Both the position numbers and the translations under genes were made by a program. This document shows, in pieces, positions 222 through 57,346 of a stretch of DNA of 64,000 nt. Origin of the DNA: Chitinivibrionales bacterium (GTDB lineage Bacteria; Fibrobacterota; Chitinivibrionia; Chitinivibrionales; FEN-1185); the NCBI GenBank assembly GCA_035516255.1, contig DATJAL010000013.1:1-64000 (forward strand), written 5' to 3'. A model generated the notes under the pieces. It was given only the letters and a program-made list of their open reading frames with translations. It searched no databases and was not told where the DNA came from. How positions within the stretch are numbered: the first letter of the stretch is position 1; the number at the start of each line of letters is the position of its first letter.

Positions 222-530
222 ATGGCAGCGTTGGACAAAACAAATGATGAAGAAATCCGGCGGCTGGTGTACGATTTCTTCGCCGAAGAATGCGATATTG
301 ACCCGTCGAAGCTTTCCGACAGCACCAACATCATCGAGGAGCTCGAGGGAGACTCCCTCATGCTGCTGTCGCTGCTCGAGATCGTCCGCAAGAGGTACGG
401 CCTCAAGATAGAGCTCAAGGTGCTCGGCAAGCACCTCATGAAAAAACCGGCCAACACCATCGGCCAGGTGGTGGAACTCACGCTGAAAATTGTGAGACAC
501 GGTGACAACATCGTTAACGTGGACGTTTGA
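222..530 (+). CDS. Acyl carrier protein
   Basis: This 102-residue protein has the fold pattern of a phosphopantetheine-carrying acyl carrier protein. The attachment motif EGDSLMLLSLLE places the modified serine at residue 45 (DSL at 44-46). Acidic helix-1 and helix-2 segments precede it, and a C-terminal helix ends in VVELTLKIV. It is slightly longer than the usual 75-85 residues. The start is ATG 222 behind GGGAGAAG. It is the first gene of a three-gene operon whose second gene encodes the enzyme that would load the phosphopantetheine arm. The acyl substrate cannot be read from the sequence. A dedicated carrier for a specialised pathway is likelier than the housekeeping fatty-acid ACP, because no fab genes are nearby. 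Confidence 0.85.
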   Translation: MAALDKTNDEEIRRLVYDFFAEECDIDPSKLSDSTNIIEELEGDSLMLLSLLEIVRKRYGLKIELKVLGKHLMKKPANTIGQVVELTLKIVRHGDNIVNVDV

Positions 531-906
531 TTCCCGCCTTCCGCTGCTCTCCTGCGGCATTGATTCGGAGCGCGTTGCACGCTTTGGAAAATGGCGCAAT
601 GATAAAACAGAATTCCTGCCGTTCGTATTCACCGAAAGAGAGCGATCCCATTGCCGGATGATGCATAATCCGGCGTTCGGCCTGTGCGCGGCGTTCTGCG
701 TGAAAGAGGCGCTGCTGAAGGCAATCGGCCGTGCGTACGACTTTACCGATTGCGAATTTCTCTACCATAAAAATCCGCGAAAATGCCGGTTATCGATTGC
801 GGGAAAAACACGCGCTCGGATGGAAAAAATTCATCCAGTCGCAAAGCTTCTCAATCCGGTCGAAGGTCAAATGTCCGCCATCATCTATCTTTTCGGCGGC
901 GTATGA
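502..906 (+). CDS. 4'-phosphopantetheinyl transferase (AcpS-like)
   Basis: This 134-residue protein would transfer phosphopantetheine from CoA to an ACP serine. Two family signatures are visible: CGID near residue 21 (the Mg-binding aspartate of the AcpS GID motif) and AFCVKEALLKAIG around residues 64-76 (the W/FxxKEAxxK motif with metal-binding Glu). FTERER between them matches the AcpS F-x-x-x-E region. Length fits the single-domain AcpS class of about 125 residues. The start is GTG 502, overlapping the upstream ACP gene by 29 bp, and the stop overlaps the next start (ATGA). This implies tight translational coupling with its probable substrate. Confidence 0.8.
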   Translation: MTTSLTWTFDSRLPLLSCGIDSERVARFGKWRNDKTEFLPFVFTERERSHCRMMHNPAFGLCAAFCVKEALLKAIGRAYDFTDCEFLYHKNPRKCRLSIAGKTRARMEKIHPVAKLLNPVEGQMSAIIYLFGGV

Positions 907-2243
907 ACATACTTCTGATCAACCCTCCACGGTCTCCAGAAAATGCGATTCTGGCGCATGCGCCCGAGGCCGCGAAGCGTTTCATCCACAAGAAGCTCAT
1001 CGGCCCGCCGCTCGGACTTTTGACCGTTGCGGCGGCGGTGAAGGAACACAATGTCACCGTTCTCGACACGAAGGCCGAATACGACAGCAATCCGCATGCG
1101 CCGGCATTGGAAGCGCTTGTCCGGCAGTACTGCGAAAAAACCAAACCGGAAATCATCGGCATCACCTGCATCGCGTCCGAATTCCCGGACAGCATGAGAA
1201 TACTGGAAAGCGTGAAACAATGGGACCCCGGCGTGCTCACGGTCGCGGGCGGACTTCACGCCTCGCTGTGCCCGCAGGACTTTGCAGGTACTCTCGTGGA
1301 CATTGTTTGCTCGGGCCAGGCGGGCCAGACGTTCCGGGAGATTGTGAGTGAGCGGGCGGGAAAACGAGAATATCTTTCTATCGGCGGGACATATGTTAAC
1401 ACGCCTGCAGGGTTTCAACAGTCACAATGCCCGCCGGGAAAAATTAATGCCGTTGTAGATGATCCTATTCTTCCAGACAGGTCATATATAAAACAATGGC
1501 TCCCTGCCTACCGGATGCCGCACAGCGAAAAAAACATCACCTACATCAACACTTCCTACGGATGCCCGTTCAAATGCTCGTTCTGCTCCATATGGCCGCA
1601 GTGGAAGGGCAGGTATTTCCTGCGCGACACCGAGAGCATCATCGCCGAGCTGCGCTCGCTTGAGGATTACGGCATCGTGCGCTTTGCAGACGCGAATTCG
1701 GTCATCGACGAGGCGTACACGCACCGCTTGTTCTTCCGCATCGCCGAGGAGCGGCTCGACAAGGAATTCGTGATGGACATCCGCGCCGACACCGCGGCGA
1801 ACAACCCGAAGCTCGTGGAGCGCATGGCAAAGGCGGGCCTCAAGGTGGCGATCTGCGGGTTCGAATCGTTCCGCAAAAGCGAGCTTGACGCGTATAACAA
1901 GCATTTCGACCCTTCGCTCATCCGCAAGGCGGTTTCGGTGTTTCACGACAACGGCGTGCAGGTGCGCGGCAATTACGTGGTCCCGCCCGATTACGACGAG
2001 CAGGACTTCGATGCCCTCGCCGTGTTCGCCGACGCCCAGCGCGTGACATACGCGGGTTACACCGTGCTCACGCCCATGCCCGGCACGGAGCTTTATTCGA
2101 GCCTTAAAAATTCCATCATTGATTTTGATCTCAGGAAGTATAATTTCTTCAACTGCGTGCTCAAGACGAAGCTGCCGATTGACAAATTCCACGAGAAGGT
2201 GGGCGCGCTGTGGCTGATTAAGAAGGGTAATGAAGTTGCGTGA
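903..2243 (+). CDS. Radical SAM protein with N-terminal B12-binding-like domain
   Basis: A protein of about 446 residues starting at ATG 903, which overlaps the PPTase stop. Residues 1-140 (NILLINPP, PPLGLLTVAAAVKE, GGLHASLCPQ) match the Rossmann-like cobalamin-binding domain that precedes many radical SAM enzymes, although the B12 ligand motif DxHxxG is not evident. The 4Fe-4S/SAM triad is CPFKCSFC (Cys 221, 225, 228) in the usual YGCPFKCSFC context. The C-terminal half reads as a TIM barrel (GFESFRKSELDAYNK, VPPDYDEQDF, LTPMPGTELY). Relatives perform methylations and ring or thioether chemistry on diverse substrates, so the reaction is unknown. Co-transcription with an ACP and a PPTase suggests a carrier-bound or lipid-like substrate. 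Confidence 0.8.
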   Translation: MNILLINPPRSPENAILAHAPEAAKRFIHKKLIGPPLGLLTVAAAVKEHNVTVLDTKAEYDSNPHAPALEALVRQYCEKTKPEIIGITCIASEFPDSMRILESVKQWDPGVLTVAGGLHASLCPQDFAGTLVDIVCSGQAGQTFREIVSERAGKREYLSIGGTYVNTPAGFQQSQCPPGKINAVVDDPILPDRSYIKQWLPAYRMPHSEKNITYINTSYGCPFKCSFCSIWPQWKGRYFLRDTESIIAELRSLEDYGIVRFADANSVIDEAYTHRLFFRIAEERLDKEFVMDIRADTAANNPKLVERMAKAGLKVAICGFESFRKSELDAYNKHFDPSLIRKAVSVFHDNGVQVRGNYVVPPDYDEQDFDALAVFADAQRVTYAGYTVLTPMPGTELYSSLKNSIIDFDLRKYNFFNCVLKTKLPIDKFHEKVGALWLIKKGNEVA

Positions 2244-2278
2244 TCGCAAGATTCTACGCTATAAATAAAAATTAAATT

Positions 2279-2410
2279 GGGCGTTTGCCTCCGGCACCGG
2301 CCCTTCCCTCCGGGCTCGGCTTAGGCCTCGTTGCCGGACCGCCCGATGCCGCTTTGCGGCGGGGTCGGCCGGCAATGCGCTCCAGCGCACCCTACAGTCC
2401 GGCCTGGCGC
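2279..2410 (+). repeat. Family A intergenic repeat, copy 1 (degenerate 3' end)
   Basis: The element begins GGGCGTTTGCC and carries the family blocks CTCCGGGCTCGGC, CCTCGTTGCCGGACCGCCC, GATGCCGCTTTGCGGCG, GGTCGGCCGGCAATGCGC and TCCAGCGCACCCT. These match the copy at 17834-17981 (opposite strand) almost base for base. The terminal TAACGC is lost and the variable first hairpin is short. The rest of the 2244-2802 gap holds a family B repeat and a promoter but no convincing gene. Confidence 0.75.
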
Positions 2411-2529
2411 GGCGGCGAAGTTCTATTTAATCACCAACCTGTCCGGGCGCCGATCGAACATGGCGATCACCTTCAAGCAATCAATTTTTTCCCTGCTTCC
2501 ACCGTGTAAAGCATGTGCTGTCACTTACG

Positions 2530-2668
2530 GATCGCCAGCCACCCAGGTCTCCGCAGACAACGAGACTCCGGCGCCAAAGAGGGGGTGTGCCCCCGGATCA
2601 CCGGCGCATCCCTGATTGTAGAATTCCAAGGTATTCGGGATGCGCCGGAAGCCGGGGGCCAGGGGGAG
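2530..2668 (+). repeat. Family B intergenic repeat, copy 1
   Basis: It contains GATCGCCAGCC, GGCGCCAAAGAGGGGG, the palindrome GGGGGTGTGCCCCC, GGATCACC, then an inner hairpin with arms GGCGCATCCC and GGGATGCGCC, and GGAAGCCGGGGGCCAGGG. The same blocks recur at 44871-44980 (reverse) and 59263-59405 with different inner hairpin sequences. Confidence 0.75.
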
Positions 2669-2692
2669 AGAGACCTCTCCCTCCAAATATTT

Positions 2693-2721
2693 TTGATATT
2701 TTCATGCCTTTCATATATTCT
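2693..2721 (+). promoter_or_regulatory. Candidate promoter for the FecR-domain gene
   Basis: TTGATA (2693-2698), a 17-bp spacer and TATTCT (2716-2721) lie about 80 bp before the start codon of the envelope gene at 2803. Assigned by eye only. Confidence 0.4.
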
Positions 2722-2802
2722 AATCCCGCCACTTAACCATTTGAGAATATTATTTTACCTTTTAAGGAAACTTAACTGTCTATTTTCAGAGCGCCGGCTT
2801 TC

Positions 2803-4932
2803 ATGAAAAAATCCATGATCACCATTCTCACCTTCTCGCTCTTTGGTCTTGCCACGAATGCATTCGCCCAGAATAGTATCAAAGTTTCCTCGCTGGACGG
2901 CAGTGCAAAGGTGCAGCATGCCGGAAAAAAAGACTGGGACAATCTTTCGGCGGGCGCGCCGGTGCTCGACAACGACATGATCGAGACCTATTTCCAGACC
3001 CGGCTCGTGATGCAGCTGGGCAAGGGGAATTCCGCGATTCTGGGCCCGAACACCAAGGCGCTGGTCGGCGTCCGCATGCCGCTGCAGCAAAACGGCGAAA
3101 CAGTACTCAACATCAGCCTGACGCTTTTCAGCGGAGGCTGTTTTATAAAGGCAGTCTCCAAATGCCATGTCAGTATATTCACGTCAAATGCGATCGGTGA
3201 GACAGACAGCGGCTCGCTTTCCGCAACGCTGGATCTAAAAACCGGCGAGACCTCGTTTGAGGCCCTTGACGGCTCGGCCAAAACCAGGGCAATTTCCCAG
3301 GAAAAAAGCATAGCGCTTTTGCCCGGGCAGACCACCGCGATTTCCTCCGGAAAGGAGCCGACGCAGCCCCAGCAGATAACCGCGGGCCACGTTTCGGCGC
3401 TCAAGCGCCTTTTCGGCGAAAGTCCCATCGACTCCGGGCTCAGCGCCGCAGGGGTGAGGCCGGGCGCGGAGCAGGCTCCCGGGCCCTCGGTAGTTTCGCC
3501 GGGCATGGGACCGCAGCAGGCGCCGACTGATCAGACGAGATACAAACCACAGTTCAGCGAAAACAAAATCTGGGGCGCCATCCTTGACGACCAGGAAAAG
3601 AACGGCATTCACTATTCCTCGTTTGCCAAACCAGACGTTTACGACGAGCGGTGGTTTACCGTGGAGGAATCGAACGAGGCGGCGTTTGCGGCCGGCCATA
3701 CGTTCCCGCGGTTCATGCTCACGCCGTCGTTTTCGAGCCAGTATTTCGGCGCCGGCCTGCGGGTGCCTGTTGCCGCGAACCATACCGGTAAAATCGGCAT
3801 GTATAATTTTTCGTCCGCAAGCGGCGTGCTTGATCTGATCGATCATGTCACCCTGGGGCCGGTCGGCGATTCCACGTATCTTTCCCTCGGGCCCATCCAT
3901 GATTATACCGTCGGCAACGGGACCGTGGTGGACCATTTTAGCAACGGCAACCCGTATTCGCTTTTCCATCCGCTGGGACTTTTTCTGCAGGCCAGGCTCG
4001 GCGACTGGTGCCTGCAGGGGTTCAGCGCCGACGTGTCCTCGTTCACCATGGACGGCATATACCTTTCGTACGATCCGAACATCTATCATTTCGGCGCCGG
4101 TTTCTTTGTCGACGCAAACCAATACTACCAGGGCGGCGCCGACTCGATCGGATACCGGTTTGTCACGCTTCCCAAATCGGACTCGGCGACCGTGCTGCTT
4201 GACGCGGTGAACTACGCCCGCGTGTACCAGCTCGATTACGGCATAGACCTTGTCACCGAATATGATTTTCGGCTCAACCTTGCCGCCGAATTCGCCCAGA
4301 AGGTGGTCCAGGTCCATAACGACGGATATATTTTCAAGGGACCGATCGCCTCCCTCACCTGGAAGAACATCCTTGTAAAAGCCGATTTCATCGCCGAGGC
4401 CGGCCGCCTGGTTGCGGGTCAGTATAACGACGTCTACATGTCGAACCGGGCGCGCGTCGACACCGCGGGAGGCCATGACACCCTCATCACCCAGAACACT
4501 CTGCTTTCCCCCCGCAGGCGGTCGGGAAAAATCGAGTTTTTCTTCGGCCTGAGCCCGCACAAGGGCATCTCACTTGACGCATGGTACAAGCAGAACGTGT
4601 ACGGCAAATACCTTCTTGCCGCGGACACCAATTATACGTCGGCGGATTTGGACGCCGGGATCTCCCTTTCGGTCAATGACGGCCTGTGGAGCCCCATTAA
4701 ATACGGCTCGGTTTACTTTAGGCAGACGCACGGCGGGCTGTACCCGCCCCGGGGCCTGTTTCCGTCGTGGGGCACGCGTGCGGGATTTGACGTGGTCACC
4801 AACCCCATCCTGTTCGGCGTTGGTTTTGCAGCGGGTGCCTCGCTGTATTATCTTGACCTGAATTTCAACAACGCCGTTGATCCCTCCGATGACGTCATGG
4901 AATGCTATCTCGCCGTCAGGTACGGCTTCTGA
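2803..4932 (+). CDS. FecR-domain envelope protein with beta-rich C-terminal region
   Basis: The 709-residue product starts with a cleavable signal peptide (ending at about residue 22, NAFAQ). A FecR-like domain covers roughly residues 25-190: KVSSLDGSAKVQHAG, APVLDNDMIET, VMQLGKGNSAILGP. A Pro/Gln-rich linker lies near 215-245. The remainder is rich in alternating aromatic and polar strands with Tyr, Asp and Gly, and the last residue is Phe (VRYGF), as in outer-membrane beta barrels. It is therefore probably exported to the periplasm and anchored in, or forming, an outer-membrane structure. The function is not recognisable. The stop overlaps the nadC start by one base (TGATG), although the two roles look unrelated. 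Confidence 0.7.
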   Translation: MKKSMITILTFSLFGLATNAFAQNSIKVSSLDGSAKVQHAGKKDWDNLSAGAPVLDNDMIETYFQTRLVMQLGKGNSAILGPNTKALVGVRMPLQQNGETVLNISLTLFSGGCFIKAVSKCHVSIFTSNAIGETDSGSLSATLDLKTGETSFEALDGSAKTRAISQEKSIALLPGQTTAISSGKEPTQPQQITAGHVSALKRLFGESPIDSGLSAAGVRPGAEQAPGPSVVSPGMGPQQAPTDQTRYKPQFSENKIWGAILDDQEKNGIHYSSFAKPDVYDERWFTVEESNEAAFAAGHTFPRFMLTPSFSSQYFGAGLRVPVAANHTGKIGMYNFSSASGVLDLIDHVTLGPVGDSTYLSLGPIHDYTVGNGTVVDHFSNGNPYSLFHPLGLFLQARLGDWCLQGFSADVSSFTMDGIYLSYDPNIYHFGAGFFVDANQYYQGGADSIGYRFVTLPKSDSATVLLDAVNYARVYQLDYGIDLVTEYDFRLNLAAEFAQKVVQVHNDGYIFKGPIASLTWKNILVKADFIAEAGRLVAGQYNDVYMSNRARVDTAGGHDTLITQNTLLSPRRRSGKIEFFFGLSPHKGISLDAWYKQNVYGKYLLAADTNYTSADLDAGISLSVNDGLWSPIKYGSVYFRQTHGGLYPPRGLFPSWGTRAGFDVVTNPILFGVGFAAGASLYYLDLNFNNAVDPSDDVMECYLAVRYGF

Positions 4933-5792
4933 TGAATCCGCAAAGCAGGCACCAGCTCGCCGCGCTCATCAGGGGAGCCCTTGCGGAAGATCTCGGCCGG
5001 GCCGGCGACATCACCTCCGCCGCGCTGTTTGACGCGAAGAAAACCGGTAGGGCCGCGATCATTTCCAAGAGCGCGGGCGTGCTGTCCGGCGTCCAGATTT
5101 TAAAACCGCTGTTCGGCAGGCTCAGCCGTTCGCTTTCTGTCAACGTCCTTCTCAAAAACGGCGCGACGCTTTCACCCGGAGGCCGCATCTGCGAACTTGC
5201 CGGCCCGGTGCGGGCCATCCTCGCGGGCGAGCGCGTGGCGCTTAACTTTCTCCAGCACCTGAGCGGCGTGGCCACGGCGGCAAGCACCCTGGCGCGCCTG
5301 ATATCCCATACCAAGGCACGCCTCCTTGACACAAGAAAAACCCTGCCGCTCCTGCGCGCGCTTGAAAAGCAGGCGGTGGTCCACGGCGGCGGATTCAACC
5401 ACCGCTTCGGCCTCTTCGACATGGTGCTTGTCAAGGACACGCACGTGAAGGCCGCGGGCGGCGTGGGCCCCGCGGTGCGCGAAGCCCAGGCCTTCGTTAA
5501 AAAGCGCAAACGCGCATTGGCGATCGAGGTCGAGACCCAGTCGGTGGCCGAATTCATGGAGGCGCTCTCACTCCGGCCGCAGCGGATCATGCTCGACAAT
5601 ATGAGCGTCGCCGACATGGCCACGTGCGCAATCCTCAGGGACTCAAGCGCCCAGGTCGTGGAACTCGAGGCGAGCGGCAACGTTTCCGCCGACACCATTG
5701 TGAAAATCGCGGAGACGGGCGTCGACTTTATTTCGGCCGGCTCGATAACCCACAGCGCGCCGGCGCTGGATATACATTTGGTAATTGAATGA
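4932..5792 (+). CDS. nadC: Nicotinate-nucleotide diphosphorylase (quinolinate phosphoribosyltransferase)
   Basis: It converts quinolinate and PRPP to nicotinate mononucleotide in de novo NAD synthesis, in the cytoplasm. The 286-residue length is typical. Visible signatures are DTRKT (133-137), HGGGFNHR (151-158), VKDTHV, the phosphate-binding IEVET near 198-202, RIMLDNM and the C-terminal ISAGSITHSAPALDIHL. The family norm for the KDTH segment is KDNH, so one residue differs there. The start is ATG 4932, overlapping the previous stop. It is followed within 10 bp by birA and then coaX, a cofactor-biosynthesis operon. nadE lies elsewhere in the window (29485), so two NAD-pathway steps are present. 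nadA and nadB are not. Confidence 0.93.
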   Translation: MNPQSRHQLAALIRGALAEDLGRAGDITSAALFDAKKTGRAAIISKSAGVLSGVQILKPLFGRLSRSLSVNVLLKNGATLSPGGRICELAGPVRAILAGERVALNFLQHLSGVATAASTLARLISHTKARLLDTRKTLPLLRALEKQAVVHGGGFNHRFGLFDMVLVKDTHVKAAGGVGPAVREAQAFVKKRKRALAIEVETQSVAEFMEALSLRPQRIMLDNMSVADMATCAILRDSSAQVVELEASGNVSADTIVKIAETGVDFISAGSITHSAPALDIHLVIE

Positions 5793-13372: not shown

Positions 13373-13645
13373 GGGCGTTCCGCGGCTTCGCCACGATAAC
13401 CTCACCCCGGCCTACAGGCCACCCCTCTCCCGCAAGAAGAGGGGAAATGCTTTTGTTTGTTTTTGTTTACCCGGGGCGCTGCCCGGGCTATAAATATTTC
13501 GCGCTTACAGGGCTCACACAAAACTACCAACTATTTTTCTGAACAACTGCCGCACGCGGGTGCGCCCGGCAGATGTGTGAAGCTTGCAACTGCAGGTACC
13601 CGGCCGCACCCAGGAGGGGGTAGCGGAGGACCGGTCGCGCAGTTT
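13373..13645. repeat. Mosaic of intergenic repeat fragments
   Basis: A family A beginning (GGGCGTTCCGCGGCTTCG) is followed at once by CTCACCCCGGCCTAC and CCACCCCTCTCCCGC (a motif also at 58450 and 60291). Next come CCCGGGGCGCTGCCCGGG and, at 13553-13645, a truncated family B unit (CGGGTGCGCCC, GGTACCCGGCCGCACCCAGG, AGGGGG). The 13335-13755 gap contains no credible gene. Confidence 0.6.
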
Positions 13646-17515: not shown

Positions 17516-17590
17516 GGGCGTTTCCCCGTCGCATAGGGGCGGTTCGCGAACCGCCCCCTACGCGACGGGGTCGGCCCTCCTTCCTAACGC
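17516..17590 (+). repeat. Family A repeat, short copy
   Basis: A 75-bp unit bounded by GGGCGTT and CCTAACGC. Its first hairpin has arms CCCCGTCGC and GCGACGGGG, with a second stem GGGGCGGTTCGC/GCGAACCGCCCC nested inside, followed by the family block GGGGTCGG. The central part found in long copies is missing. Confidence 0.75.
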
Positions 17591-17633
17591 TGGAGCTAAG
17601 ACATTCTTGCCGGCCTTGTTTTACTCCCCCTTA

Positions 17634-17672
17634 TCAAGGGGGAAACCGCCGAAGGCGGAGGGGATATTCCGC
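17634..17672. repeat. Double-hairpin intergenic motif
   Basis: CCCCCTTATCAAGGGGG and CCGCCGAAGGCGG form two adjacent hairpins between two family A copies of opposite orientation. No gene is seen from 17591 to 17833. Confidence 0.5.
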
Positions 17673-17833
17673 AGCGGTTGCGTTGCGAAGGTGCGGCGCC
17701 TTGAAAGCGTAATTGTAGAAATTCTTTTTAATGAAGAAATTATTTGGACATTAATTAATCTTAATTCGCTCGAAACGAAATTAACAGGTGACCGGAGTCG
17801 CTGCTGTTTGTAAAGAAAAAACTGTTCGCCGAC

Positions 17834-17981
17834 GCGTTAGGGGCGACTGCAGGGTGCGCTGGAGCGCATTGCCGGCCGACCCCGCCGCGAAGCGGCATCG
17901 GGCGGTCCGGCAACGAGGCGAATAGCCGAGCCCGGAAGGAGAACCGACCCCGCTTGCATTTATGCAAGCGGGGGAACGCCC
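17834..17981 (-). repeat. Family A repeat, full-length reference copy
   Basis: Read on the minus strand it starts GGGCGTTCCCCCGC, folds a first hairpin with arms CCCCGCTTGCAT and ATGCAAGCGGGG, and continues GGTCGGTTCTCC, TTCCGGGCTCGG, CTCGTTGCCGGACCGCCC, GATGCCGCTTCGCGGCG, GGTCGGCCGGCAATGCGC and TCGCCCCTAACGC. It is 148 bp long and shows the complete module order of the family. Confidence 0.8.
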
Positions 17982-40769: not shown

Positions 40770-40918
40770 GGGCGTTCCCCTCGCCTTCGTAAACTCAGGC
40801 TCGGGTCGGTCTCCCTCCGGGCTCGGCTGTTCGCCTCGTTGCCGGACCACCCGAAGTCGCCTTCAGCGAGGGGTCGGCCGGCAATTCGCCCTAGCTCACC
40901 CTCCGGTCCACCTAACGC
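40770..40918 (+). repeat. Family A repeat, full-length copy
   Basis: A 149-bp unit from GGGCGTTCCCCTCGCC to CCACCTAACGC, with CTCAGGCTCGGGTCGG, CTCCGGGCTCGG, CTCGTTGCCGGACCACCCG and GGGTCGGCCGGCAATTCGCC. Its middle stem uses CCTTCAGCGAGGGG where the 17834 copy uses a different sequence. The rest of the 40717-41246 gap, down to the promoter at 41175, contains no convincing gene. Confidence 0.75.
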
Positions 40919-51049: not shown

Positions 51050-51199
51050 GGGCGTTTCCCTCGCCTTCGTCAAGACTCAGGCTCGGGTCGGCCGTCCTTC
51101 CGGTCCCAGCTTCGCCTCGGGCTGCCACGGCCCCTCTATGCCTTCGGCGAGGGCCGGGCAGCACCGCGCCCCGGCGCGGCCTCCAGTCCTGCCTAACGC
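51050..51199 (+). repeat. Family A repeat between ABC genes
   Basis: A 150-bp unit from GGGCGTTTCCCTCGCC to TGCCTAACGC. It has CTCAGGCTCGGGTCGG and a second half different from the 17834 copy (CTCGGGCTGCCACGGCC, CCTTCGGCGAGGGCC, GGGCAGCACCGCGCC), shared with the 57115 copy. This defines a sub-type. It interrupts an otherwise continuous two-gene transcription unit. Confidence 0.75.
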
Positions 51200-51274
51200 G
51201 GCGGCGGAGATCCATAATGTTAATAACTTGCAATGGCGCCAATCGCACACTCTTTTCATTATGACAACCATCCG

Positions 51275-57114: not shown

Positions 57115-57346
57115 GGGCGTTACCCTGTTTGTTGGGGCGAAATATTTTTTCAACAACGTTTCTAAAGGGTAAGGTAGTTGTGCCTTGCACATTCTATTAT
57201 GTCATTTGCCCTTTTCGCCCCTACAAACAGGGTCGGTTCTCCTTCCGGTCTCGGCCTTCGGCCTCGGGCTGCCACGGCCCCTATATGCCTTCGGCGAGGG
57301 CCGGGCAGCACCGCGCCCCAGCGCGGCCTCCAGTCGCCCCTAACGC
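57115..57346 (+). repeat. Family A repeat with expanded first hairpin
   Basis: The unit from GGGCGTTACCC to CGCCCCTAACGC is 232 bp. Its first hairpin has outer arms CCCTGTTTGT and ACAAACAGGG and inner arms GGGGCG and CGCCCC, and encloses about 80 bp of AT-richer sequence (57142-57212). The conserved GGGTCGGTTCTCCTTCCGG and the sub-type shared with the 51050 copy follow. The rest of 56908-57617 holds no gene. Confidence 0.75.

Follow-up and report, generated by a model that had tools for sequence, protein, structure and literature searches.

Intergenic repeats with a paired but freely varying hairpin in a Chitinivibrionales genome: possible folded-DNA elements of the Flavo-1 kind

What kind of element keeps the ends of an intergenic repeat constant while the hairpin between them changes from copy to copy and yet stays paired? 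The question arises in the window, by which we mean the whole 64,000-nt stretch analysed (G000:C13:1-64000), part of a 4.28 Mb genome of 57% GC (G000). An earlier, sequence-only reading had reported at least five well-defined copies of the repeat, here called family A, and two degenerate ones. The five for which positions were given all exist and carry GGGCGTT, GGTCGG, CTCGG blocks and TAACGC (Table 1); of the degenerate ones, that at 2279 can still be made out, but that at 13373 is weak and matches over only the first ~25 nt. We regard family A as a dispersed, non-coding DNA repeat of mobile type and of the Flavo-1 kind, which would act through a branched fold of one strand, and we put the probability of this reading at about one half. 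It draws on what was observed of architecture, strand, covariation, dispersal and presence or absence between species.

Table 1. Family A copies and their first hairpins (P2) in the window; the strand given is the folding strand.
Feature	Positions	Strand	Remarks
Copy 1 (short body)	17516..17590	-	GGGCGTT..TAACGC read on +; R1 match, - strand, E=0.0014
P2 of copy 1	17524..17570	-	arms CCCCGTCGCA/CGCGACGGGG flanking a nested palindrome
GTAG-REP-like palindrome nested in P2 of copy 1	17534-17560		TAGGGGCGGTTCGCGAACCGCCCCCTA
Copy 2	17834..17981	+	GGGCGTT read on -; inverted relative to copy 1
P2 of copy 2	17948..17973	+	CCCCGCTTGCAT/ATGCAAGCGGGG, as read on -
Copy 3	40770..40918	-	G001 without a copy at the matching place
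P2 of copy 3	40778..40805	-	class with GA/GA internal loop
Copy 4	51050..51199	-	absent site in G001: ~35 bp between conserved flanks
P2 of copy 4	51058..51087	-	GA/GA internal-loop class; almost identical to P2 of copy 3
Copy 5	57115..57346	-	
P2 of copy 5	57123..57232	-	CCCTGTTTGT/ACAAACAGGG plus nested palindrome with inserted module
Degenerate copy	2279..2410	-	body recognisable, P2 region decayed; none found in the matching G001 interval
Possible fragment, weak	13373..13396	-	GGGCGTT and a short hairpin-like stretch only

Read as GGGCGTT..TAACGC, a typical copy measures 130-160 nt and consists, in order, of GGGCGTT, one base, a CCC-hairpin-GGG unit (P2), TCGG, a body of one or two GC-rich hairpins, and CCTAACGC. 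The complementarity of GCGTT and AACGC noted earlier holds, and the two segments form the closing helix, P1, whose pairing is kept in another genus (g40, genome G147) through a change from TT:AA to TG:CA. Two short segments, the 5' triplet that follows TCGG and the 5-mer that precedes TAACGC, are coupled almost without exception: TCT goes with CCACC, TTC with GCCCC, and CC[CG] mainly with CTGCC, CGTCC or CTTCC. Pairing of GGN with NCC, as judged from these sequences, may explain much of the coupling; the hairpin class is free to combine with each triplet/5-mer type. Beyond TAACGC (for example at window positions 51200-51260) there follow a second short hairpin and, at about +35, GTCAA or GGCGCC. 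GTCAA is present in 21 of 56 tails against 6 expected, and the own-arm pairing of the tail hairpin is weak (4.09 vs 3.72 ± 0.12). TTGACA, found directly before GGGCGTT, was considered as a phage promoter and rejected: it also occurs elsewhere without pattern.

The behaviour of P2 is at the centre of the question. Across 122 copies from two species, G000 and its same-genus relative G001, we counted 92 distinct P2 hairpins. To that extent the hairpins are indeed unrelated between copies, as had been proposed, but those at 40770 and 51050 are nearly identical (CCC-TC-GCC...GGC-TC-GGG, with TC/TC internal loops) and the CCCCGCTTCGCGGGG hairpin is repeated in many copies. Checked genome-wide, the arms proved complementary beyond chance: outside CCC/GGG, 67.5% of positions are paired when each copy keeps its own arms, against 30.4 ± 2.0% when arms are exchanged between copies (maximum 37.1% in 2000 permutations). 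Pairs 4-9 are standard in 61-85%, against 32-56% after shuffling, in all sets, and all four Watson-Crick types are used; because only hairpins with three or more base pairs at their foot had been used, pairs 1-3 carry no proof. The stronger assertion that the two sides always match was too broad, for in a large P2 class TC stands opposite TC at pairs 4-5, mismatched on the read strand. Compensatory changes in many pair types bear out the suggested selection on structure. Body identity is uncorrelated with hairpin identity (Mantel r 0.11, p 0.07 in G000; 0.13, p 0.12 in G001), and among pairs of copies with bodies at least 90% alike, the hairpins are less than 60% alike in 29 of 44 (G000) and 10 of 19 (G001). 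That P2 is required as a structure and free in sequence is the best explanation. Renewal of the inverted arm had also been envisaged; the whole hairpin is replaced as a block, but a dedicated mechanism is not needed, since compensatory drift, together with nested palindromes and recombination among copies, would be enough to account for the observations. Hypervariable yet still foldable, the hairpin offers a natural experiment in how shape is recognised.

It is not the strand used in the sequence-only reading that folds, but its complement. Mismatches on the read strand are asymmetric (112 TC/CT against 6 GA/AG; 33 A.C against 17 G.T), the complement thus carrying G.A and G.T, and a TC/TC loop corresponds there to two facing GA dinucleotides, which make a tandem G.A step. 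Of 51 apex triloops read on the complement, 28 have the form GNA and 3 the form TNC, and its four-base apex loops (n = 53) include 8 GNNA and only 1 GNRA, the GA/GA and loop counts being inflated by ancestry common to the copies. From the asymmetry of mismatches and loops we conclude that it is the complement of the GGGCGTT..TAACGC reading which folds. Closed by G-C pairs, GNA and GNNA loops form extraordinarily stable DNA mini-hairpins (PMC4686876). The choice of loops accordingly looks more like DNA than RNA, although tandem G.A steps and GNA loops can form in RNA too, which counts against this. Relative to neighbouring genes, which were predicted simply from codon usage or the longest ORF, the folding strand is co-directional with both in 44 cases and antisense to both in 56 (pooled, p = 0.27; 25/18 in G000, 8/19 in G001, 9/15 in the Bacteroidota set, 2/4 in the viral one). 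An intrinsic terminator or mRNA 3' element was rejected as a candidate, the copies having no fixed orientation to the upstream gene (33 vs 35 in G000). A small RNA had been entertained earlier; a DNA element is the better reading, and its folded form would be single-stranded or extruded DNA, not RNA, and protein-bound.

Family A amounts to ~80-90 copies between genes in G000 and to ~40 or more in G001. The pattern GGGCGTTN{10,40}GGTCGG gave 93 matches in G000 and 1 for a reversed control, and a stricter pattern gave 78 vs 0 in G000 and 39 vs 0 in G001. Copies occur in clusters and in both orientations, with P2, body and tail modules combining freely. The GGGCGTT end is the gene-proximal one in 88 of 104 copies from the two genomes, whichever direction that gene runs; the start or stop of the gene is a few tens of bp away, and at the opposite end the distance to the next gene is usually 250-400 bp. 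The comparison of locations proposed earlier was run against G001, the only same-genus relative compared: copies 3 and 4 are absent there, and the site of copy 1 has a copy with a different hairpin. At one orthologous pair of loci (L075 in one species, L093 in the other), family A and, after it, a second repeat lie beyond the same gene end in the two species, and the hairpins of both repeats differ. Target-site duplications and the exact ends could not be defined, the flanking intergenic DNA being too diverged between G000 and G001.

The frame is found well beyond the genus, in Flavobacteriaceae, other Bacteroidota, Fibrobacter, a Spirochaetales MAG and IMG/VR viral contigs. The link drawn earlier to units in Bacteroidota was right, and the relative, not named at the time, is Rfam Flavo-1 (RF01705): 8 of 12 flavobacterial loci with the frame match it at gathering (42 bits) on the folding strand. 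They share the outer frame GCGTTAGGG..GCCCGA-CCC[hairpin]GGG-N-AACGCCC on the same strand, whereas copies of the window genus are larger (mostly 130-230 nt) and GC-rich. An Rfam scan of the window gave no match at gathering, RF01705 included, and six window-genus loci gave no RF01705 match even at E<=1; we therefore do not claim strict Flavo-1 membership. The Rfam model does not treat P1 and the variable P2 as pairs. Our covariance model R1 comprises P1, an inner helix and P2 and was built solely on 31 copies of Bacteroidota or viral origin, selected by pattern, so that its invariant columns are partly a matter of construction. Its pair 12-67 covaries strongly (UA 15, AU 8, GC 5, CG 2): none of 500 shuffles attained the observed covariation score. 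Run on 583 kb from the window genus, R1 found seven matches, all of them true family A copies and copy 1 among them; these were mostly short-bodied, the long ones falling below threshold. Matches occur in 68 of 150 Fibrobacterota genomes. Matching R1, family A would belong to a Flavo-1 superfamily of extended architecture. Genus g40 has a 64-nt minimal form, in which GCGTT/AACGC has become GCGTG/CACGC and varied P2 hairpins sit on near-identical bodies. A literature text search with the repeat sequence returned nothing relevant.

Mosaic copies, with P2, body and tail modules in varying combinations, were seen in Fibrobacterota, and exchange is most visible in viral contigs. One of these (L300) is 91-93% identical to two others (L373 and L361) up to the element, and the homology stops 2 nt past TAACGC; within the element the inner hairpins are replaced with pairing kept, and the right half resembles that of a further contig (L319). 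This points to an exchange with its junction inside the element, and the junction was observed there rather than directly in the window genus. Short conserved boundary sequences are known between phage modules; family A resembles them in that the similarity between related viral contigs changes over within the element or where it ends, and differs in that the boundary is a structured dispersed element, abundant in chromosomes too. No common gene was found among the proteins beside the viral copies, and INPHARED phages similar to the contigs were too few for dating the exchange.

Flavo-1 was classed as probably RNA by Weinberg et al. in 2010 (PMC2864571), and the folding strand of family A could likewise yield a real RNA, either a Flavo-1 ncRNA or a cis-regulatory leader, with P2 as an unconstrained RNA stem under selection for pairing. 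The Rfam match of flavobacterial copies on the folding strand and the covariation at pair 12-67 would suit such an RNA, as would the fact that in about half of the G000 copies the folding strand leads into a gene start, a few tens of bp off. We nevertheless think it unlikely: none of the four sets has an orientation preference to neighbouring genes, Flavo-1 matches in the F. psychrophilum transcriptome lie sense or antisense alike and many fall outside transcripts (PMC9723704), GNRA loops are almost absent with GNA triloops in their place, and unrelated stems on near-identical bodies are unexpected from RNA drift alone. Drift without function, in an ordinary old repeat whose bodies stay alike by gene conversion, would be in keeping with mosaic copies and with P2 uncorrelated with the body. 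Drift without selection, however, would not keep long stems paired in 129-152 distinct sequences from several phyla, and the excess of own-arm over swapped-arm pairing contradicts it in part; we consider this account very improbable.

BIMEs and REPs (GTAG- and CGTC-tagged; PMC3733652, PMC2817692) are likewise intergenic, palindromic and mosaic, reach tens to hundreds of copies, occur in either orientation and nest other palindromes in palindromes; as intergenic palindromic units in either orientation, family A copies form a BIME-like mosaic, composite with GTAG REPs in G147. Family A might then be one composite form of GTAG-type REPs moved by RAYT (TnpA-REP) tyrosine transposases, enzymes that recognise REPs folded from a single strand and exploit irregularities of the stem (PMC8266576). 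Most G147 copies inspected lie directly beside GTAGGGGC.. REPs, and a GTAG-like palindrome is central in 10 of 69 distinct Fibrobacterota P2 hairpins, copy 1 of the window included. Such an origin seems to us quite unlikely, for family A has neither a GTAG nor a CGTC tag at its foot, the collected copies ending in GGGCGTT and AACGC, and its fold is larger and multi-branched, with a hairpin that is free in sequence rather than family-typical. Moreover, GTAGGGGC/GTAGAGGC lie near only 6 of 82 copies in G000 and 4 of 40 in G001, Y1/RAYT transposase genes are few with no RAYT beside copies, the Y1_Tnp loci of seven genomes have no copies nearby, and a genome with 35 pattern matches (G041) yet has no PF01797 match. 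In attC sites, too, conserved ends enclose a sequence-free but paired hairpin and one strand folds, and family A shares this logic as well as a tie to module exchange, seen in the viral contigs. An attC-kind site used by the integron integrase of the same genome could be imagined, since G000, the Spirochaetales genome and G001, the last with two, have TIGR02249 integrases that clearly exceed the cut-off, and GCCTAAC resembles an R'' box. We can give this hardly any credence: the resident integron has its own attC array of different sequence, the GTTRRRY/RYYYAAC core boxes are misarranged (the folding strand reads GTT..AAC, not AAC..GTT), family A has no cassette arrays, and copy-rich flavobacterial genomes have no integrase match over the TIGR02249 cut-off. 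A reverse transcriptase profile had no match in G000, and no enzyme could be linked to the element, RAYT, reverse transcriptase and integron integrase being not adjacent or having their own sites.

If family A is the mobile-type DNA repeat that we favour, the complement of GGGCGTT..TAACGC would close with the helix GCGTT/AACGC, followed by the GGN/NCC helix and the covarying pairs; P2 would run from CCC through a stem of free sequence to GGG, in many copies with a tandem GA/GA step after CCC and a GNA loop at the apex, and one or more body hairpins would complete the branched fold. A protein would bind this folded single-stranded or extruded DNA. The diversity of P2 may have arisen through old compensatory change and, as the nested GTAG-like palindromes suggest, through palindromes inserted into the hairpin, and recombination in the short constant segments flanking P2 may reshuffle it between copies. 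The element would thus work like REP/BIME mosaics and other folded-ssDNA sites. A broader proposal, which we offer tentatively and as possible rather than probable, is that Flavo-1 comprises cross-phylum recombination or transposition sites of single-strand-folded DNA, recognised by their structure, and that an enzyme acting in trans exchanges their hairpins as cassettes between copies, in chromosomes and phages alike. Rfam has listed Flavo-1 as probably RNA since 2010, whereas the evidence here favours DNA. Its frame now extends to an outer helix and a sequence-free hairpin, with loops and mismatches that mark one strand. With copies that ignore the direction of transcription and related phages that exchange inside the element, an RNA family would become a testable folded-DNA element, common to Bacteroidota, Fibrobacterota and phages.

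Several other repeats and loci were noted along the way. A module of ~45-75 nt (GGCAAATGATACAAT..GCGCAACTACCTTAC..GAACGAAGTGACA) lies inside P2 of copy 5 at window positions 57165-57215, and the same module occurs in the opposite orientation in the body hairpins of several copies (module loci L034, L049, L064, L069, L089 and L118). A second repeat family, CTCCCCCTTATCAAGGGGGAAACCGCCGAAGGCGGAGGGG, is present at 17628-17668 of the window and also adjoins copies at L036, L046 and L087. Some ten G001 copies (L096, L099, L103, L111, L112, L114, L117, L119, L121 and L125) have a further ~45 nt upstream in common (GTGGGGGAAGTGCAGCCTGTCTCAAATCTTGACAGTAGGTTT), forming a longer composite repeat. Near the repeat-filled intergenic region at L075 lies a rearrangement breakpoint between G000 and G001, each side matching a different G001 contig (L093 and L095). 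The chromosomal integron of G000 (L422, on G000:C30; integrase at 3741-4679, array at about 240-5000, small cassettes) has attC sites of ~138 bp, GCCTAACGCCGCGCTAA..TTAGCGCGTTGTTAGGC, and G001 has two such integrases. Finally, an IS200-like transposase in G001 (L131, G001:C33:25060-25404) lies amid another repeat family (CCCGGGG..CCCCGGG, CCCTTTCAGGGT).
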